Assembly: GCA_000827205.1 (NCBI GenBank)
Contig: KN832556.1
Coordinates: 2,102,969 to 2,166,968 of the forward strand
Direction: 5' to 3'
DNA length: 64,000 bases
Source: Plicaturopsis crispa FD-325 SS-3
Taxonomy: Eukaryota > Basidiomycota > Agaricomycetes > Amylocorticiales > Amylocorticiaceae
How positions within the stretch are numbered: position 1 is the stretch's first letter; every line of letters begins with the position of its first letter. Below, piece by piece: positions 15,701-34,988 of the stretch. The translations under genes were made by a program, and so were the position numbers. The notes beneath the pieces are model-generated. The model ran no database searches and had not been told where the DNA came from. It was given only the letters and a program-made list of their open reading frames with translations.

Positions 15701-16997
15701 CATTCGCTTCGGAAATGACCAGTATATTCAATGCACAGCCGTCACACCGGAGCCCAATCGAAACCTACCGCTATTCGCGAATCCAGATGTGCCATTACCA
15801 GTGAAAGCATATTATGAGCATAGGTCACCGTCACCCTCTCCCTTTGCATTTACGTTGACTGATATCCGTTTTGTTGCTGCAGTGCTATCAACTTGTTCAG
15901 TTGCACACGACCGATAGCGAGACGGACTCCGGAAGGCACGGAGGAGGTATGGTTGGAAAAGACCTACTTCACCACCGAGGAGGTATTCCCAACTGTTTTG
16001 CGACGCTCTGAAGTCGTTGCTGTGGAGCTCGGCGAGACTTCTCCTATCGAAAACGCCCTCCAGGAGATAGAGCAGAAGACAAAGGAGTTGGCGGCACTGC
16101 ACGTCAAGTATGCCGCGATTGCCAAGACAACCCAAGTCGTGTCCACGAACGCGTTGTCCATGAGCTTGAACAGCGTTGTCGATGCCCCACTCGACGGTGG
16201 CATCCCCAGTTATCGGGAGATATTCTTCGATCCCGAATATCTCAGTCGCAACCCCGACGCTGCTGACTTGATTGAGAAGTTACGCCAGGTTATTGATGAC
16301 CAGGTATGCTAAACCTCCTTCCTCAACCATGTAACATCTCTAAGTACTTCTCCTTCAGGTTCGCATGATTGATAGCTGTCTCAAGCTGCATGCCCAGCTG
16401 TGCTCTCCCGAATGGCTGCTTTTCCACGAAACTCTCGAAAAGTTTTTCAAGAAAAACTTCCATGAAGAAATCCGACGACTTGGGCTGGATGACATGTCTG
16501 AGCGAATGGGATCTTCTCTACGATCACACACCGTGGCCGGAACCTCTCAATACCAGGGCTCTATACGGGATCAGGAATCACTAAACAGGACCATGTCCGG
16601 GGGTTCTAATTCGCGTCCACCATTTTCAATCCAACCTTTACAAGTTGCTGGGCGCTCTCTAACACCCCCTCCTCCATCCCCGCAGTCGACAAGGGGTGGC
16701 AGCATGGAAACTTTGCCGCAGGCTACCCGGACGCCGTTACGTCGTCATCTAGATCACCTTGCCACCCATGGAATCAATGGTGTATCGTCTGCGCCCGGGG
16801 AGAGCAACGCTGGAAACGAATCTCTCTCTGCAGAGTCGCCTCATGAGTCTTCGTTTGTCATCACCGGCAATAGTGCACCCGCTGCTGCACTTTCGGGCAC
16901 ATCGCTTGCCACTTCAAACTTGGGGAGTCTCGGTTCGCTCCGTGGTCGGTTTTCACGGTTTGGAAGTCTGAATTTCGGACGCCGAGGAGGCTCGTAG
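9736..16997 (+). CDS. DOCK-family guanine nucleotide exchange factor (SH3, DHR1, DHR2)
   Basis: Atypical GEF that activates Rac/Cdc42-type GTPases, relative of animal DOCK180 and yeast Dck1, and likely partner of an ELMO-type protein at the membrane. Twelve exons: 9736-9998, 10066-11727, 11780-14225, 14284-14415, 14469-14858, 14911-14985, 15044-15218, 15275-15353, 15408-15546, 15597-15823, 15883-16303 and 16359-16997, giving 2215 residues. An SH3-like domain lies in about the first 120 residues (VPLEVGDEVYAFEKY, VFIGIFPASHIHV). The lipid-binding DHR1/C2 domain follows at about 650-860 (VRNELYIKLWSGDFF, NNEPTFGELIKLQLP). The catalytic DHR2 runs from about 1630 to 2045 (RDEIYIKYVHQLVN, YVEAALTLKLHSDLHEWDL, YYSDYFRVAFYGAFP, GYEWEKFGAFCERML). 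The tail is Ser/Pro-rich with basic ends. A 57-nt in-frame stretch near 13588-13644 could be a further intron. Confidence 0.95.
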
Positions 16998-17183
16998 CAT
17001 TCGTTTACTGTCAGTTTTGTGGACAATCTTTTGCTAGTCATGTCGTTGTCTCACTACACGTTTCTTTGGACCATTCTGTTTCTTTGTGTTTTTCTCTTTC
17101 TTCGTTTGTTGTTCATGTATAATGCACTAATAGTAGATTCTCAGGCGTCAGGCCGCACCGAGAATGAAGACACATGCCCTAAG
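16998..17183. other. 3' flank of the DOCK gene up to the inverted repeat
   Basis: The DOCK 3' UTR probably lies here. It is T-rich (about 17070-17120) and ends in CCTAAG at 17178-17183, a hexamer that recurs just outside the matching inverted repeat at 32896-32901. Confidence 0.5.
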
Positions 17184-17265
17184 TAGGGTAGGCGGGATCG
17201 CCACGGTTCGATTTCAAGTCGCGAGTCGGCCTTTCCGCTATCCGATTCCGATTCCCACACATCTC
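17184..17265 (+). repeat. Left terminal inverted repeat, 82 bp
   Basis: Reads TAGGGTAGGCGGGATCGCC inward and ends CACACATCTC. It is the reverse complement of 32814-32895 except for two adjacent differences (CT against TC at about 17238-17239). It contains GGTTCGATTTC, close to a pol III B box, which leaves a SINE-like origin open. After 17265 the two copies diverge. Confidence 0.85.
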
Positions 17266-18909
17266 TCCCAACCTGCTACGCTCCGATCTCCACGCTGACA
17301 CCGTACTCGATGTCGAACGCTCCTCAATGATGCTCGCCTCTTTGCTCCTCCTTGCTCCCGCTGGAATTGGACCCAAGGAACTCTTACAGTTGCTGTAACT
17401 CTGCTTGTATGCGCGCCCAACACAATGATTCCATCAGTACTGTGAGACTGAAATGTCGCATGCATAGACGTTCCGAAGCCGCTGGAAGATGGATTTGCAG
17501 GGCTGTTTGCTAGTGAGTGGCCGAGTGCGAGTGACGGTAAGCACGACTGAATGCAATTGCGCCATGAGAATGAAAACTGACAAAAGGGTTGCATTATTCT
17601 GCGCGACGCAGAATAATGCAGCTCCCCTCGTAGCTTGCTGGACAGTTGCTCACACCCTCATTATTACACCGTCAACCGCTGCTTTTCCCTCTCAAGTTCA
17701 TACTCTCGATCCCACAATATCATCATCGTACTATTCAGCTCCTGGACAATATTTACAGCGGCGGCGCATGTACCAGTAACTCGTTTTTGCCGCTCAGATC
17801 ACCGCCCTCCCTCCGCCTCCCGCCTATCTTTCTTCCAAAGAAAACGGAAAGAAAAAAGTGAGTCCACCGCTTTTATCGCGTTGTTGCCTACCACCGGGGA
17901 GCCGCAGTACACCTTCCTACCCTGGACGGTAGGAGACGCGCTCACCGGGTCAACTGACGACACGTTGATCGTTGTTCAGGACAGATTTCTGACTGCCTCG
18001 CATACAACATAGGAAGCCCGCGCCAAAACGAGCGACGACACGTCGCTCACAAATGTGCGCGTGGCAGGTACCCCTGAGGTGAAGGGCGCAGACAGTGAGT
18101 CCTCTCACAGCCTCGGGTGCGCTGGCAGGCGCGCTTACAGCTCAGGGTATCACGCAGTCCGACCCAAGCAAGGTTTCTGCCGACGGCAGTCGGCGCATCC
18201 CTAATGCCATCAGCATGTTTAATCTGATTGGCTAGCCTAACCGTCACTTTGCCCGTTCAGCCACCGAATGGGCAAAGTCACTGCCAGTCCCTGACATGCA
18301 CAGCACTGTCCTCTGCGTTCGTGCCTCGCCCCCAACCAGGCAAATCTATTCGTACATATTCAAAGACACAATTCCTGTACTTACTTACTTCCCCATTAAA
18401 GATTCCTTCGTCATGCCTGCTCGCTCGACGCCTTGACGTGCATCAGCGGATTAGGGTATCGAGCCGGGCCTCCCTTCTGCGAAATCCCACATCTCGCAGG
18501 CAACACCCTCACGATGCTCCTCACACCCTCGCGGTGCTCCTCGTCTTCGTCGGCTCCCCGTTCCCTACCAACCATTCAACTTAACATTTTCATTCTCCAG
18601 AACATCCTCCGTACGTCTTATGTGCTCTACGCTATGCCTCGACCTTCGCAACTCACGTCGATGCCCACTTGTGCCATTATTCATAGGACATAACTAGTTA
18701 GAATGAGGGAATATGATAGTGCTGCTCGGTGAGCAAGCACAACGTAGTATTGTACTGCCCGCGTATGACCTTTTCTGTCGAGGATACGTGGCAGGCTTTC
18801 GGAACACCCATGGCGTAGCTTGCTCCCGACCGCGGTATGGATCTTGTTCTCGGCACATTCCGACCATCTTCTTCACCCGGAGGCGATACCTGTCTGTGAT
18901 TGCAGTCCA
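17266..18909. other. Low-information stretch inside the inverted-repeat segment
   Basis: I found no intact gene here. A possible relic on the plus strand at 18013-18235 is listed separately. A 13-bp hairpin with a 7-nt loop lies at 18246-18278 (ACTTTGCCCGTTC against GAATGGGCAAAGT, one mismatch). The rest is pyrimidine-rich and frame-broken. Confidence 0.35.
18013..18235 (+). pseudogene. Possible gene relic, unknown family
   Basis: Two stretches with coding character lie head to tail in different frames. The first (18013-18099) reads EARAKTSDDTSLTNVRVAGT and on to GADSE. The second (about 18107-18235) reads TASGALAGALTAQGITQSD and on to IPNAISMFNLIG and a stop. Only about 8 nt separate them, too few for an intron, so a frameshift or decay is likelier than splicing. 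An acceptor-like TAG precedes the first piece. I do not recognise the family. Confidence 0.25.
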
Positions 18910-19370
18910 TACCGGACTACTTGAGCGCAAGAAGCGCTACACGCGCTCGTACTGGGAACCGTATCTCGTGCTTACCCCCGCCGGCTTCCTGCCCGAATAC
19001 GCGTCGTCCGACTCTGTCGCTGCGTCAACACCGCTGTTCTCGCTTTTCTTTCCCGCGTGCACTCAGGGCCCATTGTCGTCCTCCAGCGTACGTTCACACA
19101 AGTTCCACATCAGGGGCCGGAAGTGGATCGGGCTCTACGAAGCCCAGCGGCCTGTCGCACCTGTCGATTTCCCATAGCCGTGTGGAGCTTCCACGCACGC
19201 AGCCGCAAGGACATGATGGAGCGGTGGAACATCATCCAGATACCTGGTGTAGTATCCTGATGGCGAGCGAGTCGATGGAGTAGAGCGGACCCGTTGCTGT
19301 GGCTGTACGCCCGCCGGGTATGCCGGCGAAGCGGAGGACAAGGAGCACGAGGAAGATGAGTGACCACCCT
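18910..19370 (+). pseudogene. PH-domain pseudogene, Slm1/Slm2-like
   Basis: This is a decayed copy of the C-terminal pleckstrin-homology domain of an Slm1-type protein, a phosphoinositide-binding family at the plasma membrane. The plus strand reads GLLERKKRYTRSYWEPYLV, LTPAGFLPEYASSDS, LFSLFFPACTQGP and SHKFHIRGRK. In a second frame it continues with STKPSGLSHLSISHSR, then back with VWSFHARSRKDMMERWN and, in another frame, VASESMERSGPVAVAV. The order matches a single PH domain, but at least two or three frame changes break it. No N-terminal membrane-binding part is recognisable upstream. It is host-derived and probably captured or left by duplication inside the inverted-repeat segment. Confidence 0.6.
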
Positions 19371-20142
19371 TAATGTGCACCCTGCAACGTCAACTAACTC
19401 CTCTGCTTCGACGCGGCCGGGTGCATTTCACATAATGCAGTATCCCCCATACTGCTCGGTATCCCGTACGCTCTCCGAGTTTGCGTATACCGCAGTCGTG
19501 GAGGGATCAACGGACTACGACTCATTCTACATCATACTAGTGCAATATATATGCATTTTGCAACTAGAATTGAGATTGCTTAGGCCTTAAGAGTTGCTTG
19601 CGCGCCAATGAACAGAATAGAATGCATTACAGAGCTTGTATAACATTTGACATAGCACTGAACACATCCCACGCGCTGTCTAGGTTAAGTGCTGGCCGCC
19701 CCACGGAATTATAAGCCTCCCCTGCAAGGGCCGCAAATTCGGCCGTTACCCAAGCCAAGTGGCTGTCTCGCGGGCCAACTTCCTCCACCAACTGCTCGCG
19801 CAGCTCCGCAATAGCTTCCGCCGGTACACGCACTCTACAATCAAGACCACCTTGGGATTTGGGGTGCTCTAGAACGTCTATCGGAACATGTCCAGAGGGC
19901 ATATTCTTGTCTTGCTGGTATCGGACACGATGCTGATTCCACCAGGTGCGAAATTCGTCTAGTTCGGCCTGGATGATAGATGGAAAAATCCAGTTGAAAA
20001 GATCCCTATGATGCCTCTGAGAGAAATAAACTTGTAGTCGGATTGGATGGTTCACATACCGGTGCCACGGAACATTGGAATCAAAGATATGGTCCGTCTT
20101 ACCCCGAAGAATATACGCCTTAAGATTTCGACCCATCTTATC

Positions 20143-20335
20143 TGTAACCGTGCCCGATTACTACCTTCCGCATCCAGCTATTAACCCCTATACCCCACGT
20201 ACATACGCGCCCACTTGTATTCCCTTTACCTCGAGCTCCCCTTCCTCCAACCACCATCACCCCGCAATGCCATAAACTTGTCCTGATTATCTCCTGTCCC
20301 TTTCCTCTAAGTGTAGCCACCCCGACTGGCTTCCA
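20143..20335 (+). repeat. Left (5') LTR, 193 bp
   Basis: Starts TGTAACCGTGCCCGATT and ends GACTGGCTTCCA. It matches 25615-25807 base for base, and TTATC precedes it at 20138-20142. Confidence 0.95.
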
Positions 20336-20720
20336 CTTTTTTTTAATCATCGACAAAGCTTATCCCTCAATTTACCGGTTCCACGCTCCGGCGCCGCGAA
20401 GTTGAGTTTTGCAAACCTTATCTCCGTCAAACCGTTCCCGCCGCTCCCGCCGCCCCCGTTCACCTTTTCTTTTTCACCCCCGCTACCAGTTCAACGTTCG
20501 TACTATCCGTACGACACCAGTTCCAGCCATTCCAGCTTCAACCCGGTCCCGCACGGTTCGCCAAACGGCGTCTGTGATCACGCCAACTTCGTCAATCTCG
20601 TCAATCTCTTCAGTCTCGTCGCTCCCGCTCTCAGTATCCGCTCCAGCCTCCCCCAAATCCACAGCTCTCCCACCGTCTCCGGACTCCTCCAGCTCCTCGG
20701 ACTCTGACGTCTCGACCACC

Positions 20721-23700
20721 ATGTCTTTCCTTACCCCTGCCGATCCCCGCGTCGCTCGCGTCGAACAAGCGGACGGTTCCAAGCCGCCCATTCTCACGCA
20801 GGGCAAAGTCACGCCTCGCGTCTTCCGCGATTTCGTCGACGCGGCGGAACACTACCACTATTACAAGAAGATTACGGACGAAAACAAGGTCCAGTCCGTC
20901 GTCTACGGACTGAAGGACGCGCGTATTAAGGACTGGTACGGCGCGAAGAAAGCCGAGTTGAACGCGAGCTCCTGGGAGGACTTCCTCCCGAAGCTCGCGA
21001 AGGTTTCTCTGCCCGGCGGCTGGGAGCGCGAGACGCGCAACCAGATCCTGTCCGCTAGGCAGGGAAACGACACGTTCGAAGATTTCTACATCCGCATCAG
21101 CGCGCTGAACTCATTGATTTCCGACACCGACAGCCATGTTTCCCTCGACTATATCCGTATGCAGCTCTCTTCCAACTGCCATCCCGACCTACACCACCTC
21201 TGCGAGGAATCTCTCGCCCACGAGATCGCGGATTTCACGGATTTCCTCGACGTCGTCTCGAAGCTGGACGAGAAACGCATCCGCGCCGCTGCGCAGCACA
21301 AGGCCCTCGTCGAACAGGTCGTAAAAGAGCGCTCTGACCGCATGGCCAAGGCGGCTCCATTCACCACCAAGGGTCGTGTCCCTCCTGGCGCCACCAGCAA
21401 AACTGTCGTCACCGCTTACGGTCCGCCCATGCCCGCCCTTCTCGAGGAGGAGCGCGCGCTCCTGGGTAAACATGAAGGCTGCTACAAGTGTCGGCGTTTC
21501 TACGCCGGGCATCGTGCCAACGCCTGCACGAACGACTACCCCGACGCCACCACGTACAAGACGCTCACGAAGGCCGACGCCGAGAAAGCCAAAGCTCGCG
21601 TCACTCCCCTCATGATCAAGAAAACGACGGTTGCGGCCGCGAACGTCATCGCCGCCGTCGGCATGAGTTCGTCGGTTATCGAGGAGGCCGGTGATGAAAC
21701 CGTCTCCGACATCGGGAGGTGCGCACCGTTCCATGTTCCCCACCTTTACTGGGACTGTCTTCTTGACAGTCCCGGCGCTCCTTCATACATCGGAACGTCC
21801 GCTCTTATTGACGACGGATGTACAGCCGTTCTGATTAGACCAGAACTTGCTGACCAGCTCAAACTTCGGCGGTTCCGATTGCACAAACCGGTCGAAGTTG
21901 GTTTGGCGATGGAATCAGGCGAGGCCAACGTGAAGTTTGAGCTGAAGGAGTGGGTTCGGCTTCGTTTTCTTTCTCAGAATCATTCTTGGTCTTCGCGCTC
22001 TGTAAAAGCTATCATCACGCCTGGACTTTGCGCCCCAGTTATTTTAGGTCAATCGTTTTTGTCCGCAAACACCATCGTCATTGATTACAGTGACCGCTCG
22101 GTCGTCGACAAGTCCTCGGGTTTCAACTTGCTCGACGCCGCCTTCCCCGACTCCGCCTTCCCCAATAAATCCAAGCCGAAATCCCGCCCTTCGCACGCAA
22201 ATCTGCCCAAGTTTGGTACCGTCAAGAACGCCCACCGAGCGGTCCTCAAGGAACTCGGTGAAGTTCTGCCAGAACGCAAAATTCTGGTGGACGATGACAA
22301 TGAGTGCTCGCCGTCTAAATTTGCGAATACAACTTACGTTGCAGCTGTCCGGCAGCGTATTGAGACTCTCGCGTTTGCGGAGAAACTCAAGAAGCGCGAC
22401 GCCAAATTCAAGTCGAAATTCGGCGACGTCTTTGGTGAAATACCGCACACGGACGACTTGCCGACAGACGTCTACCACCGCGTCAAGTTGAAGGACCCCC
22501 TGCAAGTCATCGCCTGTCGAGGCTACGCCTGCCCGCGGAAACACCGTGAGGCTTGGGACCAATTAATCAAGTCTCACCTGGACGCCGGCCGAATCCGCCC
22601 GTCGAACTCGCCATACGCTTCACCCGCCTTCCTCGTTCCCAAGGCCGACAAGGACGCCTTACCGCGTTGGGTTAACGATTACCGGAAGATCAACGCAAAC
22701 ACAGTCGTGGATACATACCCCCTTCCGCGGATTGACGACATCCTCGCGGACTGTGCGAAAGGTAAAATCTGGGCGAAGATGGATATGACGAATTCTTTCT
22801 TTCAGACTCGCATGCACCCGGACGACGTGCAATACACGGCAGTGCTGACGCCCCAGGGGGCTTTCGAATGGCTCGTCATGCCGATGGGCTTCCGCAATTC
22901 GCCATCTACCCACCAGCGTCGCGTGAACGCGGCCCTCCGGCGACACATTGGCAAGATATGTCATATCTACCTGGACGACATCATCATCTGGTCACAAACA
23001 ATTGAAGAGCACGAGCAAAACGTTGCGACTATTCTACAGGCGCTACGTGATGCTCATTTGGTCTGTTCTCTCAAGAAAACTGATCTATTTGCCACAGAGG
23101 TCGACTTCCTTGGCCACCACATCTCCGAGCGTGGTATCGAAGCAGACCTTTCAAAGGCAGATCGGATCGTGAACTGGAAGACTCCCACGTCGGCGAAAGA
23201 AGTTCGCGCGTACCTGGGACTCGTACGATATCTAGCTACGTTTCTTCCCGGTCTGGCGGAGCTTACCGCGCAGCTGACGCCGTTGACTAAGAAGGAGTGC
23301 GACCGGCTCTTCCCTACGTGGACGGCCGAACACCAGAAGGCGTTCGAGGAAATCAAAGCCCTCGTCGTCAGTCGCGACTGCCTGACAACGATCGACCACC
23401 AGAGCCCTGGCGCAAACAAGATTTTTGTTACAACGGACGCCAGCAACCGTCGCACCGGTGCCGTACTCAGCTATGGCGAGACATGGGAAACGGCGCGGCC
23501 AGTGGCGTATGATTCCATGCAGTTCAACGCCGCCGAGAAGAACTACCCCGTCCATGAGCAAGAGATGCTCGCGATTATCCGGGCACTAAAAAAATGGCGC
23601 GTTGATCTTCTCGGGTCTCGATTTGAAGTGTATACTGATCATCGCACGCTCGAGGCGTTCAATGATCAACCGGACCTTTCCCGCCGGCAATGTCGGTGGC

Positions 23701-25391
23701 AAGAATTCATGTCTCAATACGACTTCGGGATCCATTATGTCAAAGGAGAAGATAACACGGTCGCCGATGCGATGTCGCGTTTGGAGGACGACGATTACTC
23801 GCCCTCTTTCATCGCTACGGTGAACATGCGCTCCGTTTCGAAGGCGCTCTCTCGTTTGCCCCCGGTTACTTCGTGCAACGTCCCCACGGTCCTCGCATCA
23901 ACTTTCGTTATCAAGTCGCACTCTTCCCTGCTCGCGGACATCCAACATGGATACACGGTCGACGATTACTGCGTCAAGCTACGCGAAAACATCGCCAGTG
24001 TCCCTGGCCTCGCCGAGCGCGAGGGTCTCCTGTATATCGGGGACCGCCTCGTCATCCCTCGTTACTCAGATGTGCGAGAGCAACTCTTCCGTCTCGCGCA
24101 TGACAATCTCGGTCATTTCGGCTTCGATAAATCCTATGGCTCCCTCCGCGACTCTTACTACTGGCCCCGCATGCGCTCGGACCTGGAACAGTCTTACATC
24201 CCTGGCTGTGCGGACTGCCAGCGCAATAAGGGTCGCACTGCTAAACCCGCCGGACCTCTACACCCGCTGCCCATTCCCGACGGGCGGTGCGACTCTGTCG
24301 CCATCGATTTCATCGGCCCGTTGCCCCCCGACGAAGGTTACGACTCCATCATAACAATGACCGACCGCCTCGGTTCCGATATCCAAATTGTCCCTTCCAC
24401 CACGACCCTTTCAGCCGAGGATTTCGCCACGGTCTTTTTCGACCGCTGGTACTGCGAAAACGGCTTACCGCTCAATGTCGTCAGCGACCGCGACAAGCTG
24501 TTCGTGTCGCGTTTCTGGAAGGCCCTTACCAAGCTCACGGGCATCTCACTGAAAATGTCGACTGCGTACCACCCGGAGACGGATGGCAGCAGTGAGCGGT
24601 CGAATAAAACGGTCAACCAGTGTTTACGTTACCACGTCGAGCGCAACCAGCGGGGCTGGGTGCGCGCTCTGCCGCGGGTACGTTTCGATATCCTCAACAC
24701 GGTTAACGCCTCTACCGGTTTTTCAGGTTTCCAACTCAAAACCGGGCGTTCTCCCCGTGTCATACCGGCGATTTCGTCGCTTGGCGATGCAGCTTTGGAC
24801 GGCACGGATGCGGAGGCGGCTCTCGCCGTGCTCCGGCGTTTACAAGATGACGTCGCGGAAGCGAAAGACAACTTACTCGCTGCGAAGGTCGCGCAATCTG
24901 CACAGGCTAACAAGCATCGTGGGTCCGAGGTCGTGTACAAAGTGGGCGACAAGGTGATGTTATCCACTTTTCACCGCCGACGAGACTACGTTCAAAAAGA
25001 TGATAGGCGGGTTGCAAAGTTCATGCCGCGGTACGATGGGCCGTACACGGTCACGAACGCGAACCCAGCTAGGTCTGTTTATTCGATTGAGATGCCCAAC
25101 TCACCCGAAGTCCTGCCTACTTTCCATGCGTCGCTCCTTTCTCGTCACGTCCCAAACGACGACGCTCTTTACCCTTCGCGGGCGCGAGTCGAGCCCGGTT
25201 CCGTCGTCACCGCCGACGGCGAGGTCGAGTGGACGGTCGAGAAAATCATCGACGAGCGACGCCGCGGACGCGGATTCCAATATCTCGTGCGTTGGTCCGG
25301 CTACGGACCCGAATCCGACCTCTGGCTCCCCCGGCGGGAGCTGGACGAATGCGCGGCCCTCGACGCTTGGCTCGCGGACCACCCTCGTTGA
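20721..25391 (+). CDS. Gag-Pol polyprotein of the Ty3/gypsy chromovirus
   Basis: One frame of about 1,556 residues from the ATG at 20721. The order is Gag with a CCHC-type knuckle (CYKCRRFYAGHRANAC, about residues 253-268), an aspartic protease region (about 360), reverse transcriptase (YLDD near 750), RNase H (TTDAS near 904), integrase with an HHCC zinc domain (about 1126-1170) and D, D, E signatures (about 1195, 1255, 1291), and a C-terminal chromodomain (about 1504-1556: VEKIIDERRRGRGFQYLVRW). RT-RNaseH-IN order and the chromodomain place it in Ty3/gypsy chromoviruses. The frame is open further upstream, but no earlier ATG is evident. Confidence 0.95.
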   Translation: MSFLTPADPRVARVEQADGSKPPILTQGKVTPRVFRDFVDAAEHYHYYKKITDENKVQSVVYGLKDARIKDWYGAKKAELNASSWEDFLPKLAKVSLPGGWERETRNQILSARQGNDTFEDFYIRISALNSLISDTDSHVSLDYIRMQLSSNCHPDLHHLCEESLAHEIADFTDFLDVVSKLDEKRIRAAAQHKALVEQVVKERSDRMAKAAPFTTKGRVPPGATSKTVVTAYGPPMPALLEEERALLGKHEGCYKCRRFYAGHRANACTNDYPDATTYKTLTKADAEKAKARVTPLMIKKTTVAAANVIAAVGMSSSVIEEAGDETVSDIGRCAPFHVPHLYWDCLLDSPGAPSYIGTSALIDDGCTAVLIRPELADQLKLRRFRLHKPVEVGLAMESGEANVKFELKEWVRLRFLSQNHSWSSRSVKAIITPGLCAPVILGQSFLSANTIVIDYSDRSVVDKSSGFNLLDAAFPDSAFPNKSKPKSRPSHANLPKFGTVKNAHRAVLKELGEVLPERKILVDDDNECSPSKFANTTYVAAVRQRIETLAFAEKLKKRDAKFKSKFGDVFGEIPHTDDLPTDVYHRVKLKDPLQVIACRGYACPRKHREAWDQLIKSHLDAGRIRPSNSPYASPAFLVPKADKDALPRWVNDYRKINANTVVDTYPLPRIDDILADCAKGKIWAKMDMTNSFFQTRMHPDDVQYTAVLTPQGAFEWLVMPMGFRNSPSTHQRRVNAALRRHIGKICHIYLDDIIIWSQTIEEHEQNVATILQALRDAHLVCSLKKTDLFATEVDFLGHHISERGIEADLSKADRIVNWKTPTSAKEVRAYLGLVRYLATFLPGLAELTAQLTPLTKKECDRLFPTWTAEHQKAFEEIKALVVSRDCLTTIDHQSPGANKIFVTTDASNRRTGAVLSYGETWETARPVAYDSMQFNAAEKNYPVHEQEMLAIIRALKKWRVDLLGSRFEVYTDHRTLEAFNDQPDLSRRQCRWQEFMSQYDFGIHYVKGEDNTVADAMSRLEDDDYSPSFIATVNMRSVSKALSRLPPVTSCNVPTVLASTFVIKSHSSLLADIQHGYTVDDYCVKLRENIASVPGLAEREGLLYIGDRLVIPRYSDVREQLFRLAHDNLGHFGFDKSYGSLRDSYYWPRMRSDLEQSYIPGCADCQRNKGRTAKPAGPLHPLPIPDGRCDSVAIDFIGPLPPDEGYDSIITMTDRLGSDIQIVPSTTTLSAEDFATVFFDRWYCENGLPLNVVSDRDKLFVSRFWKALTKLTGISLKMSTAYHPETDGSSERSNKTVNQCLRYHVERNQRGWVRALPRVRFDILNTVNASTGFSGFQLKTGRSPRVIPAISSLGDAALDGTDAEAALAVLRRLQDDVAEAKDNLLAAKVAQSAQANKHRGSEVVYKVGDKVMLSTFHRRRDYVQKDDRRVAKFMPRYDGPYTVTNANPARSVYSIEMPNSPEVLPTFHASLLSRHVPNDDALYPSRARVEPGSVVTADGEVEWTVEKIIDERRRGRGFQYLVRWSGYGPESDLWLPRRELDECAALDAWLADHPR

Positions 25392-25614
25392 GTTGGTTTT
25401 GTTTTGGATCTGGTGTTTTTTTTTTTTCATTTTTTCTTCTGGCGGTTGCTCGTGCGCGATGAGATTTCGACGAGTTTGGTTTTCGGCCCCCCCCGCATTA
25501 CTTATGTTTCATACCTTCGCTATCGCATTTTCGCCGTCGACCGGCGTTTTCTGGTCTTTTCTTTTTTTGCCTGCTGTCCCGACGCCCCGTCGAATTTCTG
25601 TCGATGGGGAGGAG

Positions 25615-25807
25615 TGTAACCGTGCCCGATTACTACCTTCCGCATCCAGCTATTAACCCCTATACCCCACGTACATACGCGCCCACTTGTATTCCCTTTA
25701 CCTCGAGCTCCCCTTCCTCCAACCACCATCACCCCGCAATGCCATAAACTTGTCCTGATTATCTCCTGTCCCTTTCCTCTAAGTGTAGCCACCCCGACTG
25801 GCTTCCA
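25615..25807 (+). repeat. Right (3') LTR, 193 bp
   Basis: Identical to the left LTR, preceded by a purine tract and followed by the TTATC target duplication (25808-25812). Confidence 0.95.
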
Positions 25808-27322
25808 TTATCCCGCAACCACCTCCAAAATCCTTCGATAACAGTGTTGTGCACACTCTTGAGAAAAACCCATGGTGGATAGACGTCAGGATCAATTTCC
25901 GGGGCAAATATTTCCCTTCGAGTTGGGATATGAATTGAGTTAAACGAGGCACAGCTTATATAGATCCCCTTGTGCTTACCGTAAAGCAGTCTGAAAGGCG
26001 TATTGCCAACCAGTCTCTGACCCTTTATCGGTTGTCATTTGGATAGGAACACCTATAATAGCAGCAACACGTCAGCCGAGGGTCCATGAATTTCTGATGG
26101 GTCCAATCATGCACGCACATCCCGTTTCCTGAATGAAATCAAGGAATACATGACCTAGTGCAGCTGCCGTGCGGCAGTCGGGTAAAACGCGCAACATCAA
26201 CAGAGCATCCGAATACTTGTCTTTATAACCGTAGATTGGTAGTCCAACATCGAGCCCCATTCTCAATGCTTGCGAGGATAGCTTCTCGTGGCCATCTGCT
26301 GAGATTTCGTGGAATGGCCCAATAGCCGACAGTGCTTGGCGTTCGATGTTAGATTTGCTTCGATTTCCCGGGAACCGTTGGCTGAACCCTTCTGGGCGCT
26401 GAGTGTGCATGGCATCACGAATGGTATCCCTTCCGGTTGCACACCACTGTAAGTATCTCAAATTTTGCACGCAACGGTCCTATAACACACCTGGGAGCCA
26501 TGATATGCTGATCCTTTAACTTTCCTTTGATGAAGTTTGGACCATTGGAGTTGGTTACATCTTTCTCAACCTCGTCTAGGATAGCCTGTTGAACTTGCTC
26601 GGGAGGAACAATTTGTCGTCGAACAGATGGGATCGCAAGTTTGCGTTCAAGTTGATTCAGTTTCGATAATCTGTTGCAGTCCCATGAAGAAGTGGTAAGT
26701 AAGGAAGCCACATTGTCGGCGGTCGCGGCTGCCGCCGCTCAGCACGTCACTTACCCAATTGAGAGGTCGTGATCATCACGCAATCGTGCAAGCTTCTCGC
26801 TTTGCGAGAGACCACGACGCGCATACTTGAGAAATGTATCTTTCAGCACCTCGTCGGGAGGATCTGCCAGCAAAACATGTGAGCATTCAGCATCTAAGTG
26901 AGATGGAACTCGACTGCAGCTAACAGTTTTTCTTGCCGTAGCTGTTCTTTCCGTCGTGGTTAGGCATCTCCAGGAGCGAGTGTAACGATTCGCGTCAATG
27001 TCGAGAATATCTTGGGAAGAACAAGGTCGGAGTTGTTGCCAGCACATTAGTAGGGCTGCGAGTTGTGCGTATTGTCGATTGAGCTATGTACTTGAAAGAA
27101 ATTTGACAGACGAACCGTACGGCAGGTAGCCGGCAGAACGGCAGAATTAGCAATTGCAATGGTGCAGTATAAATGCCTCCCTCTCGCCGTGAACAATCCG
27201 TGGCGTTCACCGCTCTGATTCCTTGACTCTACCACCCGCCACTGCCAAGGCAGTGTTTCCGTCCTTGTCATTGAACATTTCCCTTTCTTTCCGCATACAA
27301 GCCTCTATCCCCTGCTGGTTTC

Positions 27323-29983
27323 ATGCCTCAAAACTCGGAATGCGATGACTGTGGGGAGACCTTCATTCTGCAAGAAGGAACAGGTGTATGCTGCAAGTGC
27401 AAGAAGCTTAGCGGACACAGACTTGACTCCGTAGAGTATGCGGACATCTCGGTACGTCTTCTGTATCTTTGGGTACTTGTGTGACGGCCTCCTCATCTCA
27501 TACGTGTCTTGTCTAGAAATGGCCACAATGTGTTATGTGTGGTGTAACTCGCCGCAACCTAGCTTCGGGATCTCAAGCCGGACCGCAGACGTGTGGCGCT
27601 CCGAGATGTCGCACCCTTGCTGCGCAGGGACAGCAGGATGGTGCGTCGATCAAAATCTGTTCAACTCTACTTCAGTATCGGCTTAGTATGTCCTCGAGCA
27701 GGAGTTGAGCAGTCAGGAAAGCGCAAGACCATGCTTCCTGTCGCAGAGTCTCACAAGGAGCGTGCAGATATGGTACGCCAGCGTCTAAAGCTGTCTCCGG
27801 CTGCCACCCTTCACGGAGGTGCAAGCGGCACGTCCTTGAACACTGCTGCACTGCTCGCCCACGAAAGTGCTGGAGGGGCTCCTGGTGAACCTAAGGCCAT
27901 GGTCTGTTGGCAGGTATGATCTCACAGCTTGCCTACAGTCGTTTCAATCTGATGCTCATTGCTGCTTCTTTGCGCTCTGCGCTCAGGTTCGTGTAAGTAA
28001 TCAGCCAAAACAAATCAATCACGACCTTCCAAATGGGAACAAACTATGGGCGTATTCGATGTGGCTCTCAGGTACTTCTCTCTTTTGATCGATGCATGCC
28101 TTCAAACCTTGCTTATTCGTTTGGTAATATAGATATCAAGGCACACGTACTTCAACAAATCGCGGTCGATTGGAATCGCAACGGCGCGGCTCCGCTCCTT
28201 GAGTAAGTTATCAACTTCTGATCCCCTCTTCAAGATGACATACTGAATGCACGTGTCCTGCAGTGAAGAAGTCCAGTTCCGCTGGAATGGCAACAGGGTA
28301 TTCGAAAAGGACACTTCGACCATGCGACTCGGAGAATTCGTGATGTTTCATCAAACCCCGACAATGTCATTCTACTTAGACAAGATCCCCTCGAATTGGA
28401 AAGCTCATGCCAAGGGAAAAACACCGTGTCTGTGTTTCGAATTATACATTGATTATCACGCGGTATGTAGGATCATGACTATTTGTTGAATTTGCTTGTG
28501 CTCAAACAAGTCCGTCCAATCTTAGTATTCAAAACGACTGCGTAAATTGCGACTTAACCACAGTGATTCTGACGACAACGACGAACTTGAAGACACCTCG
28601 GGCACTGGGGCCATGGTTAAATCTATGGTTCGGGGTGCCGCAAAGCGTTCAAGGCCGCTCTCGGACTCATCCGAAGTCAACAAACGTCAGCGCGGTAAAG
28701 TAATTCCATATCTCTACCAACACCTTGTTTTCTAACCCATAATTTTAGTTCCTAGCAGCGCAATGGGAGCTTCATCACCGTTCAAAAGCACGTTTAGAGC
28801 TTCTAGCCAGTCTGGAGGCCTAGCTATGGTCCAGACCCGGAGCGATGTCAATCTCAAGAAGATTGTCTATCACCTCAACGATGTTGATGGAACATATGAG
28901 TTTGAGGATCCTCAGGTCGTGGTAAGGGGCAGAATTCGAGATGTTCCCTTCAATAGCGGTGCAATGAAGCATGCATACGATGTATGAATCCACCTTCTTT
29001 ACTGATCATTCCGTTCTGCTAATCCGGCGGTGTGTTCCAGCTTATCCTCGATGATGGAGGAAGCTACGTTGCCAAACGATTCTTCAAAACTGGTGGATCC
29101 GAAGGGCACAAAAACTCGCTCTTTGACGACGATAGTGCTTCGCAATCCGCAGGACCCGTCACAGTTGCAGGTAACGAAGCAGCGCTGCAGGGCGAACTTG
29201 GACGCCTCGCACTTGGGAAGTGGTGCTTGCGGAGATTCTATGAACACGCAAGGTCAAACACTATTACCGTGGATTTTGGTAAGTTTTACTGCACCGTATG
29301 AGGCACATAAGTATTGACTATAGCACTACCCAGATATTGCGTTCGCCCGAGCGTTTCTCGGGAAAGAGATCGACAGGCCCAGTCGCGCATCTGGAGTCAA
29401 CGTCATCGATGAAGCAAATGAAGGTATCACCTGGCTGATAGAAGAGCGCCGTCCACAGACTGTGATTCGCTTTAGCGGGACACTTGCTCATCGTTCAATA
29501 CGTCGTGATCTACGGTCGGCCACCATTTCGGCCTTCGCCCACTTTGCCTGGGGTGCCAGCAAATATAACTTTGTCTTGGCTGATCTACAAGGTGAGCTAG
29601 TCCTTATCTGAGCACCATACAAAGTCCTGATGGTCCTATCGTTGTAGGAACACCCCACCGAGTCAGAGGAAAAGACGGGTTGATTTTATTTGACTTAATG
29701 ACGCATACGCTTGAAGGGTAAGCCTGCGGCTACTCGATATTCGAAGGGACTTGTAGGCTCACTCAGCCCCAGAGAAAGTGGTGTCGGGGATTTTGGTCGA
29801 GAGGGAATCTCGACGTTTTTCCGCGACCATTCTTGCAACAGCATCTGCCGTGAAATGCGCCTAGATTCCGAGATGCCCCTCCGGTTTGTTGAACGGGAGG
29901 AGAGCCCGAGGGGAATCAACAGCGATGATTTGGAGTATGAGCCCGGGCATACTGGAGAGGACTCGGGCGGAGATGACAGTTGA
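27323..29983 (+). CDS. Alpha-type (MHCK/EF2K-like) atypical protein kinase
   Basis: Serine/threonine kinase of the alpha-kinase family, unrelated in sequence to classical kinases; this family is expanded in several basidiomycetes. Twelve exons: 27323-27451, 27517-27640, 27702-27913, 27987-28071, 28133-28202, 28264-28462, 28526-28694, 28749-28981, 29041-29278, 29334-29591, 29648-29717 and 29773-29983, giving 665 residues. The N-terminus is Cys-rich with CxxC pairs (CDDCGETF, CCKCKKL, CVMCGV, CGAPRC) and may bind zinc. The kinase domain covers about residues 340-640: YVAKRFF with the probable ATP-contacting Lys, NFVLADLQGTPHRV, LILFDLMTHT, the family signature GVGDFGREGISTFF and the zinc-binding HSCNSIC. 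All key motifs are present, so activity is plausible. The substrate is unknown. It starts 276 bp from the divergent integrase gene, inside the inverted-repeat segment. Confidence 0.93.
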
Positions 29984-30125
29984 ATACCTTCCCAAGTTCC
30001 ACCTCCGAATCGATGACATGGCACCGTAGCTACATTACTCTTTTACTAATGGTTCATTAATACTATGCACTCTCGGACACCTTTCATTGACACAGAACTA
30101 CACTTCGAGCAACATTATACTGGAT

Positions 30126-32126
30126 TTAGATAACATTAAGGGCATGTAAATACACTATGGTACAGTCATAAGAAACCGACACAGGTGGACTAATCCCCGG
30201 GGCAGTTGCTAGCCCATCGACGTGAATATGCGCGCTCCACAGCTTCAGTGTCTGCGGGTGCAGCCTCTCGTCGACGGAGGGCGATTTGAACGCGACAATG
30301 GCTTCGGTCGGGAATGGCGCTGGCTTTTCGACTGCAGCCGGAATAGCTTCAGGTCCGGGGGTGTCGACTGTAGTCTCTACGATCTCCACAGGTGGCTCGG
30401 GGGGTGGGACTTGCTCGTCTTCCACGGGAACCGCATTCACAGCGGACACGACGTCCTCGGTGATGGGCCCCGTTAGCGGTGCGATTGATTCTATCTTCGA
30501 GACGACAGGTGGAGATTCTACAGCTTCGCTTTCCGTAGCGTTTTCGGTGGCAGGCGGCACAGATGGCGCCGCTTCGGGGACGTCTACGTCTTGAGATGGT
30601 TCCACGGCGTGCGCGTCTGCCGGCTCCTCGACAGGTGTCGGGTGCGACTCCGCAGCGACAGGCTCCGGCAGAGGACGCAATTCCGTGGTGTCGGGCGGAG
30701 GCGACGGCTCGCCGTAGATGGTCGATACGTTCTCCGTGTCCGCATCGAACTTGGACGAAGGGCCTGCCTCGGGGGCAGACGTTTCGATGACGGCGCCCGT
30801 GTCACTGGTGCCCAGCGCGTCTTCGATAGCCGCGGGTTCGGCGGGGGCACTGTCGTCCTGCTTCGCCAGCTCCCCGGCGATGCTGTACGCCTCGCTGAAC
30901 ACCATCGTGTCCGTCCTGTTCCTGCCCACCTTGCGCGGGCTCTCGCTCCCAGCCGCGGCCCATTCGCCGACACCGGCGTCCTGTGCGCTGTGGCGGCGCT
31001 CGCGTTCGCCGAGGGGGTCGATGGCTGCGGCCTGCAGGCGCGGCGGCGAGACGTCGGCATCGTTGCGGCCGTCGCTGAGCGTGAGCCGCGAGGGGATGAC
31101 GAGGAATTCTGCGGGGACGAGGTCGAATTTGGACGTGAGCGCCAGGAAGCGCGCGTAGAGCGAGGACTCGACTTCGGCCTGCTCGAATGCTTCACGGTGG
31201 TGAAAGTACGCGTGCGCGAAGATGCGCCCGAGGCGGCGGGCGAGAGAAGAGAAATGACGGTAGGAGGTCTGGGGAATGGAAAGGCGCGAAGGAAAGGCGC
31301 GCGGCGAGTTAAGGAGTGCTGTTGCACTGTCAAGGGTATGCATGATGTAGTCTATCGCGCAGCATTGCTGCGAGAAACGTCAGTGGGGTCTTCTGGGCAC
31401 ATGCAGACGCTGCATTACCTCCATGGCGCCGTCATTTCCGTGCGCGACGCAGAGATACAGCCATTCGCCGGCTTTCATCTCGGGACAAGACGACCGTGTG
31501 CATTCTTGCTGAAGCATGGTTATGAGAGGGTGTGATAGGTCTTGTGCTAGTCGTCTGCATGCATGATGTAGGTGCGCTCAAAGACAAATTCTGAGCCATG
31601 CTCACCGTAATTGCTCGTAAATCCAACATGCCTCGTTGACGGTGACCTCGCCTTTGTCGTCCTTTGCCTCCTCTGCAGCTGTGGGTCATTCCGCGGCCTT
31701 TTCTTTGCCCTGGAATCAACACGATATTGTCGACATCGTGCACGTTCAAGGGTCTGAGCAGGGAAATGTATTCTTGGAGCTGGAAAGCGCTGTCGAGGGA
31801 AGCCAACGGCGGGAGGTCCATGACGGAATAGAAAGAGGAGATACGCGGGCCCCGTAACGGCCTCATAAAGACCTAGAGCCCTCACTGTCAGCATTCTTCC
31901 AGGAAATAGAACAGCAAAGCAGCTTGCGTATTGTAACCGGTGTCAACGCCGTCACAATGCGACCTAAGCACAAGCTGTCGAGCTGGAGCCGGGTGGGGTA
32001 CCCTCGGTCCGGGCTCGAACCTGCAGATCGCTCTGCCTTGCTACTCGTGCGTTGCAGTGGATAGCAAACATATGAAATGCTCACCTTCTTGATCAGCATC
32101 AATCCCCGACCGACGACCCTCTGCAT
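30126..32126 (-). CDS. MOB/phocein-family kinase activator with long acidic tail
   Basis: MOB-family adaptor. MOB proteins bind and activate NDR/LATS kinases or, as phocein, join STRIPAK complexes. Exons: 32126-32085, 31872-31723, 31670-31606, 31554-31419 and 31367-30126, giving 544 residues. The MOB core fills roughly residues 50-230: FQLQEYISLL, ACWIYEQLR, LAQDLSHPLITMLQQECTR, CPEMKAGEWLYLCVAHG, CCAIDYIMHTLDSATALL, LGRIFAHAYFHHREAFEQAE and ARFLALTSKFDLVPAEF. The Cys and His residues expected to bind zinc are there. The remaining 310 residues are disordered, Pro/Glu/Ala-rich and acidic. Exon 1 (14 codons) and the acceptor of exon 3 are the least certain; intron 1 is long (212 nt) and holds a tRNA-like scrap. 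The gene converges with the alpha-kinase; the stops are 143 bp apart. Confidence 0.85.
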
Positions 32127-32813
32127 TTGTCACATCTCACAGTGCACACTGAGCTCACGGTCCACCTCCCCGTCCAGCGCGTCTGCCATCCCTAGCTCCG
32201 TAAAGTCTACACGTCAATCCCGCCACCGCTTCTTGATATATCCTAGCAGGAAAACCGGTAAATTCGTCAATACACCCGGACGAGAGACGAGTAGGGGGGA
32301 GACCCGCACAGTGGCGAGGAGCGGTATGCGCCGTGGGAGCATGGGAGCTGAACGGGTGCGCGCACGCTGTCCTGCACTCTAGTGCAAATCCTACGTGCAT
32401 CTGGTCATTTACCTAGTCAAGCCATTCAGCATCTGTAGCACGACCACATATAGAGCAAACTAAGAACGCGGACCTCAAGAGTTCTGTAACACAGTGGGCG
32501 CACACGAGGGGCAGAGCGGGCAGCGTAAGAAGATACTGTTAGCCAGACACAATGGGACAAAGTGCGCGATAGGGTGCAACTCGAGAGCAGGGACCACACA
32601 GCGACGTAGGGCTGCAGTCGAGAGGGCCTGTGTGGGATGCCTAGCCCGTTGTTCGTCCTGGCATATTTCCGAAGTATGGCAGAAAACGCTGCATTGTCGC
32701 AAGTGGCACGATCTAGGCAAGGAGCATGGTGAAAGCGTGAAGTACGGATTATGTTACTTAGGTACTGTCAGTCCAGTGTCAGTCTGTAGAGAATTGGCCC
32801 CGCGTCGAGCGTT
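32127..32813. other. Upstream region of the MOB gene inside the right inverted repeat
   Basis: This is the probable MOB promoter. A Cys-containing open stretch on the minus strand (32475-32720) has no family signature, and I do not support it as a gene. No RNA gene was found. Confidence 0.4.
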
Positions 32814-32895
32814 GAGATGTGTGGGAATCGGAATCGGATGACGGAAAGGCCGACTCGCGACTTGAAATCGAACCGTGGCGATCCCGCCTACCCTA
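32814..32895 (-). repeat. Right terminal inverted repeat, 82 bp
   Basis: Reverse complement of 17184-17265 at 80 of 82 positions. The hexamer CCTAAG follows at 32896-32901, matching the one at 17178-17183 on the same strand. Confidence 0.85.
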
Positions 32896-33114
32896 CCTAA
32901 GCCTTGGGTTTTTGCAACGGAATACGAGCAAACAAACGAGTTGGATCGAAGTACATGCGCAACTGTGATGTCCATAAAACACAAACTAGCATCGTCGAAA
33001 CTTGCAACAGAAACCGTCGTACGGTAAAACCCACATGAGAAGTAATATAACCATAGATACGTGTCCAGAGGAAAGCTGCAAGGAATACACATACAAGTTA
33101 CACATACATGGTGG

Positions 33115-34988
33115 TCACATGGACCCGAGCCCGGGGGACGCCTGGTCAGCGTAACGCAATAGCTCGAACTCCTGTGAATCATAATGATTCATAGGGAAGT
33201 CCGGCTGATAGACGAAGTCTGAGTCAGTGACCAGGGACATATCCCCTTCGCCGAGGTTAGAGGATTGCGTACTCCAGCCTTGCGAGCCTTGCGAGCCCTG
33301 AGAGTAGGATGAGTCGCCGTCGGAGGAGCGGGTATTTGCTGTGCTTAGAGCGGTAAAGGGGTTGCCTTCTATGATTGGAGTGTGGGTATACGATATCGCC
33401 GTTTCCGAGCTACGTGTGGGGTATGGAACGGGAATCAAGGCCTCGGCGAGGCCTCGGTATTCACCGCTGAAACTATGAAGTCCTTTGATAGGTTGTGGTG
33501 GTGATGACGATGGTGGTGGTACATTGCTGGTATCAGTGAGATCTAACACAGCCTCGGTGACGGCAGCAGTCTTGGAAGGAGTGGCGACAGAGGCGGTTTT
33601 GCAAGAGGGCGGAGGGCGAATGACAGAGACGTAGCGAGATGGGCTATCGGTAGCAACAATATGTAGGGACTGGAAATATTGAGGTCAACGTGGGGACGAC
33701 AGCGTGATATCAGTGGATGACATACATATCTCGACATGATCTTGTTCAGCGCGACACCTAAGACGTGCCAGTCAAACACCTTGAGGTCCTTCTCTATCTT
33801 CCGAGGCCGAGGGTCCGGGAACGCCATGATGCGCTGGAAAAAATCCTTGGACTCGAGCTTGTTCTTGAAGATAGTGGTGGGTTTGAGGCCCTCCAAGTTA
33901 CGTCGGATGCGATTCTTCTCTTCGACCTCGAACTCAGAGCCGACGAGGTTTTCAAGGAGATAGATGATGTCTGCGGAAGTGACGATGCATCTCTCGGTGG
34001 CGGGGTTGTAGATGCATGAGATGACGATGTCCTCTGCCTGGTAGTCCTTCTGCTTTATGCAGTCGCAGGTAACCCTCAACCGTGTACCGTTGAGTACACT
34101 CTTGACACGAATAAGACGACGACCGCTAGCCAGCTCCGCGTGATCCCAACCACCGGCAAAGTACTCGAGGGGCGTGACGATGTCGAGAACAGGCTTTTGA
34201 GGGAGATTTTCGGATTCGGGTGGCGGCACGATAGTCTGGGTGCGACGGACAAGAACGACTCGCTTCGCCTTGCGGGTGCCCGATGTTTTGGGCTGGGGCA
34301 GCTTCCGGGGCGGCGACGCGATAGTGGGATTTGATGCTGGTTTGGTCTCCGGAGATGAAATTGCAGCGGATCGCTTTGCTGCCGGCGCCATTCCGTCCGA
34401 ATCCTCGACATCGGAGCGAGGATGCTTCAACGATCCAGCAGCTGTTAGAGCGCGCGCTACCAGAACAGGAAACATTTAACTTTTTGAAAGACATAATATC
34501 ACTAGGCGACTCACCATAATCCCTGTACTGGAAGTCGCCGACTCTCATGGAGTCGATGATGCGGTGAGCCCCGCACGTCAATGCCTGCACCGTGATAGGA
34601 ACGCGCGCGGAAGGGAATAGCTTGCTGTCGAAGGGGGGAACCGTTGCCTCAAGCTGCCATCGGACGGAATCATCGTCGCCAAGCTTCTTAACCTGAGTAC
34701 CGATGGGCTTGTTACCCACGACCAAGCGAACATACACATTTTCTTCCCCGAAGAAGTCGATTTGTGCAATGAGAGGAGCCGCAGGTTCTCCCTCTCGCGG
34801 GCTGTACCCACAGACACTGAGGCGACGGGGGACTGCAGGTGGAGGAGCATTCGTATCCACAGGCGGAAATGCATTGTGGGATCCTAGCGGGGTGGATTTA
34901 TATCTCGCACTGTCGTTCGAAGTGGTTGTCTTTCGATGGATATGATTGAGACAATCGAACGCATGCTGCAAAGGAACGTGCTCACCAT
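33115..34988 (-). CDS. Medusa (MedA/Med1)-like developmental transcription regulator
   Basis: Fungal regulator of the MedA family; members control conidiation, filamentation or virulence in ascomycetes and smuts. Exons: 34988-34986 (only the ATG), 34929-34515, 34441-33726 and 33669-33115, giving 562 residues. After the ATG-only exon the protein starts TTTSNDSARYKSTP. The first conserved block (about 48-145) resembles an IPT/TIG fold: LSVCGYSPREGEPAAPL, VYVRLVVGNKPIG, VRWQLEATVPPFDS, VPITVQAL. The hallmark block follows (about 240-375): TPLEYFAGGWDHAELASG, ISCIYNPATERCIVTSADI, VEEKNRIRRNLEGLKP, RPRKIEKDLKVFDWHVLG. The tail is Ser/Gln/Gly-rich. A gene-free region of 1.9 kb lies upstream, typical of a developmental regulator, and a 5'-UTR exon is likely near 35090-35200. 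Confidence 0.85.

Follow-up and report, generated by a model that had tools for sequence, protein, structure and literature searches.

Positions 17178 to 32901 of the window (the whole stretch of DNA analyzed, 64 kb long, with an N count of 0) hold a 15.7-kb stretch bounded by terminal inverted repeats (TIRs) and a target-site duplication (TSD). On its left stands a DOCK gene (PF16172, PF14429, and PF23554), and on its right stands a DUF7082 gene, named "Medusa-like" in a previous sequence-only reading of this DNA. Judging from its gene content, the window probably belongs to a fungal chromosome, with a basidiomycete as the likely host. The unit itself (17184-32895) measures ~10.0 kb when the Ty3 element nested in it is left out. 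From left to right, the features are as follows.

17178-17183, unstranded: left TSD, CCTAAG, directly outside the left TIR
17184-17265, plus strand: left TIR, starting TAGGGTAGGCGGG; its outer part recurs at C2 (as an inverted pair) and at C17
18760-19359, plus strand: decayed piece of a PH gene of the SLM type (PF20399, E = 1.7e-22), similar to C18:211043-211691
19627-20142, minus strand: C-terminal portion of the transposase that belongs to the element itself (PF24764, E = 0.0048, below the family cut-off)
20138-20142, unstranded: left TSD (TTATC) of the nested Ty3 element
20143-25807, plus strand: nested Ty3/gypsy chromovirus with identical 193-bp LTRs (20143-20335 and 25615-25807) and one open frame (20406-25391)
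25808-25812, unstranded: right TSD (TTATC) of the nested Ty3 element
25808-27083, minus strand: N-terminal and catalytic exons of the transposase, in a three-frame reading
27347-28987, plus strand: stretch conserved with C17 (64% DNA identity, tblastx pieces), probably the N-terminal part of the alpha-kinase
29023-29983, plus strand: catalytic exons of the alpha-kinase (PF02816, E = 3.8e-8), divergent from the transposase
30126-31866, minus strand: MOB gene of the phocein (MOB3/MOB4) type (PF03637, E = 1.8e-16), with introns placed by eye and a long C-terminal tail
32814-32895, minus strand: right TIR, pairing with the left TIR
32896-32901, unstranded: right TSD, CCTAAG, directly outside the right TIR

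Ends, genes, and nested insertion

The sequence-only reading had reported two near-identical 82-bp inverted repeats with the same hexamer directly outside each, and both statements were confirmed. The repeats agree at 80 of 82 positions (97.6% by BLAST), and CCTAAG occupies the six bases beyond either one. They are the window's sole inverted pair with an exact 20-base seed, and resampling the window three times under an order-1 Markov model produced none. Three other inverted pairs, 20 to 21 bases long and 76 to 85% complementary, lie at 17000-33100. Two random 6-mers of the window agree with a chance of 0.0003. No further TIR-like match longer than 11 bp occurs in the window, and there is thus no inner TIR between the alpha-kinase and the MOB gene. 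ARAGORN called no tRNA in the window. As the reading frames of the flanking genes converge, we infer that, with the segment taken out, the DOCK and DUF7082 genes would face each other with short convergent 3′ flanks and form a natural empty site.

A Pfam scan covered 20 frames, 16 inside the unit and 4 flanking it; positions 16500-33500 contain 61 frames of at least 90 aa. The alpha-kinase, MOB, and PH domains named previously were all recovered inside the segment. The PH stretch, previously called a pseudogene, is indeed decayed, with stops and frame breaks visible by eye, and it aligns with the PH_20 gene at C18 at 79% DNA identity over 651 columns (we take SLM to be the name of this PH_20 family). 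The left cargo region also holds other dispersed repeats: pieces of 17800-18280 recur at C8, C1, C9, C15, C17, and other places, some of them a few kilobases from PF24764 integrase genes.

The unit contains two distinct integrase genes, one within the Ty3 polyprotein and the other the separate minus-strand transposase, whose two pieces are set apart by the 5,665-bp Ty3 element. In the Ty3 frame, Pfam placed reverse transcriptase (RT), RNase H, integrase zinc-binding, and chromodomain families over their cut-offs (on 22659-25391), while the integrase core (rve) had an E value of 0.0037, below its cut-off. The transposase shows the motifs ADGHEKL (about 26296), TTDKGSE (about 26029), and NTVIEGFW (about 25836), in which we recognize a DDE triad by eye, and judging from its sequence it is likely integrase-like. 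Over one exon, the protein is 83% identical to the C17 copy and 38% identical to that at C26. Similar transposase C-termini occur at C17, C26, C15, and C6 and, more weakly, at C3. The genome search with PF24764 listed 13 matches at five loci, with the window and C17:81 kb absent; against a profile made from pieces of those five loci, the window transposase gave an E value of 2.5e-4 and a probability of 43%. The exons with the first catalytic D matched no Pfam family in the window, at C17, or at C26. Two transposases of a related family, much alike in sequence, stand beside a run of N at C26 (L044) and at a contig end at C15 (L041), respectively; that run (the first 4,098 bases of L044) and that contig end conceal any alpha-kinase there.

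A DDE-integrase gene able in principle to mobilize the segment had been proposed. A transposase gene is present, but it is split, and the sole uninterrupted integrase gene is that of the nested Ty3 element. Because the Ty3 insertion disrupts the element's transposase gene, the present element probably cannot mobilize itself.

The MOB gene, between the alpha-kinase and the right TIR, matched phocein (E = 1.7e-22) far ahead of MOB1 (E = 4.9e-4) in a PDB search; phocein-type MOB proteins are part of the STRIPAK signaling complex. A genome search with PF03637 gave seven matches at three places (C5, C1, and the window). The gene at C5 is MOB2/MOB1-like (PDB search: MOB2, 6.6e-16; MOB1A, 4.6e-14), and that at C1 reads as MOB1, typed by eye only, which leaves the window gene as the only phocein-type MOB found in the assembly (one of three MOB places). 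The stretch that contains it (29990-32813) had itself as its sole genome match. The gene does not look like a retrocopy because introns are present, as placed by eye. The reading frame switches once near 31610-31700, where no clear GT-AG intron is visible; this may reflect a frameshift, a misassembly, or a short intron whose acceptor is weak. In the titles and abstract openings that our literature search covered, no MOB gene inside a transposon was recognizable.

Related repeats, transposases, and alpha-kinases in the genome

We searched the whole genome for further copies of the TIR. The DNA search gave 4 matches and a pattern search (at most 3 mismatches) gave 5, the window's own two included, counts that are lower bounds (at least 5 genome-wide). 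The same pattern read backwards, as a control, had no match in the genome. The three matches outside the window fall at two loci, with an inverted pair at C2 and a single copy at C17, so that four of the five (at least) sit in inverted pairs. The C2 repeats are ~2.5 kb apart, have TACGGTAGGC ends and the same TIR core, and enclose a run of N. Their flanking duplication, CCAGGAT, is 7 bp as written and 6 bp with a one-base shift. A stretch that resembles a tRNA by eye lies within a few tens of bases of the start of the C2 pair (L005, 3280-3420); ARAGORN called no tRNA in L005.

The C17 copy has its lone TIR at about C17:73301, ~2.8 kb beyond the end of an alpha-kinase that is divergent from a transposase, in the same gene order as in the window. 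The alpha-kinases of the two loci are 79.5% identical in protein over 88 aa. The matching block spans ~4.7 kb in the window (Ty3 left out) versus ~6.4 kb at C17, where ~1.9 kb extra adjoins the kinase. Matches to the C-terminus of the C17 transposase are spread over several frames, which suggests decay or introns. A frame between the TIR and the kinase at C17, considered as possible captured host DNA, gave only short, weak matches in the genome, five besides itself. Family searches of the genome placed no MOB or PH match at the C17 copy, and no recognizable second TIR was found there; a 16-bp match near C17:88866 was rejected because it falls within a short repeat that adjoins a run of N.

Alpha-kinases were found at four places genome-wide (the window, C17, C6, and C3:1.23 Mb), and pieces of a related transposase lie within ~6 kb of each. 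Kinase and transposase are divergent in the window, at C17, and at C6 and in tandem at C3:1.23 Mb, which also has the poorest transposase match (E = 1.4e-7 without composition correction). This comparison took in seventeen loci; ten loci around PF24764 copies, used as a control, gave no hits at an E value of 0.05. Since all four places found have transposase pieces nearby and the pairing is published for IS3EU (PMC12730594, in the portion consulted), the alpha-kinase belongs to the standard gene set of such transposons and is not a random host gene. Of the genes previously described as host-like, the MOB gene and the PH fragment stand as cargo. The association of every alpha-kinase place found in the assembly with an IS3EU-like transposase points to a spread of these kinases as genes of the transposons.

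Around the transposases of C26, C6, and C3:1.23 Mb, the stretches inspected held no TIRs of the window family, a small related element at C6 excepted. This element (L043, 4557-5959; C6:1481556-1482958) is ~1.4 kb long, with inverted repeats 98.7% identical over 239 bp, a related TIR start (TACCGTGG), a 6-bp duplication (ATCGTG), and a run of N inside. It sits between the alpha-kinase and its transposase.

Origin of the segment

The near-identical TIRs, the matching TSD, the inverted pair at C2, and the TIR standing before a transposase/alpha-kinase block at C17 argue that 17184-32895 is most likely one insertion of an IS3EU-type cut-and-paste transposon with a MOB cargo, broken later by Ty3. 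These observations support the large cargo-carrying transposon that the sequence-only reading had put forward. An integrase-like transposase would have bound the 82-bp TIRs and joined the ends to the target 6 bp apart, which would leave CCTAAG on both sides. The normal gene pair of the element is the transposase on the minus strand and the alpha-kinase on the plus strand, and the MOB gene was probably acquired when host DNA enclosed by the two ends moved along with the element. The PH fragment, on the other hand, was copied, because the C18 gene that it resembles is still in place. The unit, from TIR to TIR and across the kinase and MOB genes, would then have been excised and inserted where the 3′ ends of the DOCK and DUF7082 genes converge, and a Ty3 chromovirus would later have landed in the transposase gene (TSD, TTATC). 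No second phocein-type MOB was found, which fits cut-and-paste, and, as far as sequence can tell, the MOB gene may have been relocated by the element. For the complete account, in which a transposon swallowed and relocated the host's only phocein-type MOB gene and was later immobilized by the Ty3 insertion, we consider the case evenly poised.

Several observations speak against a single insertion of an IS3EU-type element. The C17 copy lacks a recognizable second TIR and any MOB or PH match; the transposase stays below the PF24764 cut-off, is absent from the matches that the genome search with this family listed, and reaches a profile probability of only 43%; the ends TAGGG (window) and TACCG (C6) do not conform to TAYGG; the C2 duplication, unless shifted by one base, has 7 bp; and kinase and transposase are in tandem at C3:1.23 Mb. 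The MOB gene could always have resided between the DOCK and DUF7082 genes. In that case an IS3EU element would have landed next to it, a second insertion or a rearrangement would have supplied the right TIR, and MOB would never have moved. A sole phocein-type MOB is what would be expected of a resident core gene, the surroundings of the gene have no second genome copy, and the MOB family search lists none at C17. However, near-identical TIRs that share one 6-bp TSD, the lack of an inner TIR (or of any TIR-like match over 11 bp) between the alpha-kinase and MOB, and the natural empty site expected from the frames of the flanking genes make this history unlikely, and we rank it below a single IS3EU-type insertion.

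We also rank below it the SINE-like origin that had been kept open previously, under which two separate SINE or MITE copies face each other by chance. The repeat does contain a short B-box-like string, and the C2 pair resembles a nonautonomous element of ~2.5 kb. Yet the string is altered in the C6 relative, a single TSD is common to both ends across 15.7 kb, the C17 copy stands before a homologous transposase and kinase, and the genome matches found (at least five) lie mostly in inverted pairs, not as the many lone, dispersed copies that mark a SINE. The SINE-like origin thus found no support, and two chance neighbors are very improbable. Polintons (Mavericks) carry an integrase along with protein-primed DNA polymerase and capsid genes and measure 15 to 20 kb, a range that includes the segment. 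That it is a Polinton, which likewise has a 6-bp TSD (PMC10045372, as far as consulted), or was moved by the Ty3 integrase is scarcely credible beside the single insertion: the 16 Pfam-scanned frames of the unit gave no polymerase or capsid family, the Ty3 RT apart, and the Ty3 integrase was rejected as the mover since it sits within its own LTR element, with its own TSD, inside the transposase gene.

If the single-insertion reading is true in full, a TIR transposon is able to move a single-copy signaling gene to a new place, beyond copying gene fragments, which bears on how gene order changes in fungi.

Comparison with known transposons

Fungal IS3EU elements are described with a 6-bp TSD, TIRs longer than 30 bp, TAYGG..CCRTA ends, and a transposase opposite in orientation to an alpha-kinase (PMC12730594), and the wider description gives IS3EU TA..TA ends and a TSD of usually 6 bp, with GingerRoot likewise at 6 bp (PMC10045372; both papers in part). 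The TSD is 6 bp in the window (CCTAAG) and at C6 (ATCGTG) and 6 or 7 bp at C2 (CCAGGAT). TA..TA termini are present at both ends in the window, at C2, and at C6 and at the one end seen at C17. TACGG at C2 and C17 fits TAYGG; TAGGG (window) and TACCG (C6) depart from it. The window TIR of 82 bp exceeds 30 bp, and the opposed alpha-kinase is seen in the window, at C17, and at C6, with C3:1.23 Mb in tandem. From its features and the published descriptions, the most fitting assignment of the unit is a DNA transposon of the IS3EU type, whose terminus deviates from the published ends by one base. Dada transposons, which came into consideration for the 6- to 7-bp TSDs and the tRNA-like stretch at C2, insert in multicopy small RNA genes and have no TIR (PMC3706591, in the part consulted), and they were rejected since the window element has an 82-bp TIR and ARAGORN called no tRNA in the window or in L005.

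With the fungal IS3EU TET+ families, as far as the portion of PMC12730594 describes them, the window element has in common the 6-bp TSD, TIRs longer than 30 bp, TA..TA ends, and an opposed transposase and alpha-kinase. It differs in its added phocein-type MOB and PH fragment, in its end (TAGGG, not TAYGG), and in that no TET/JBP gene was recognized among the genes read in the window; a TET/JBP gene between transposase and kinase is defining for the TET+ families only. Compared by description only with the IS3EU/GingerRoot superfamily (PMC10045372), it shares TA..TA ends, a 6-bp TSD, and probably an integrase-like transposase, and it carries host cargo, of which the part of the superfamily description consulted makes no mention. 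The cargo, a PH gene fragment and the sole phocein-type MOB found, is what is new here.

Gene capture by transposons is familiar from Pack-MULEs, which share with the window element a copied host gene fragment (here PH) inside TIRs. Their transposase is different, and the window MOB spans the whole domain, with no second copy found. Starships are likewise large fungal elements with cargo genes; they use a tyrosine recombinase and are without the TIR/DDE structure of the kind seen in the window.
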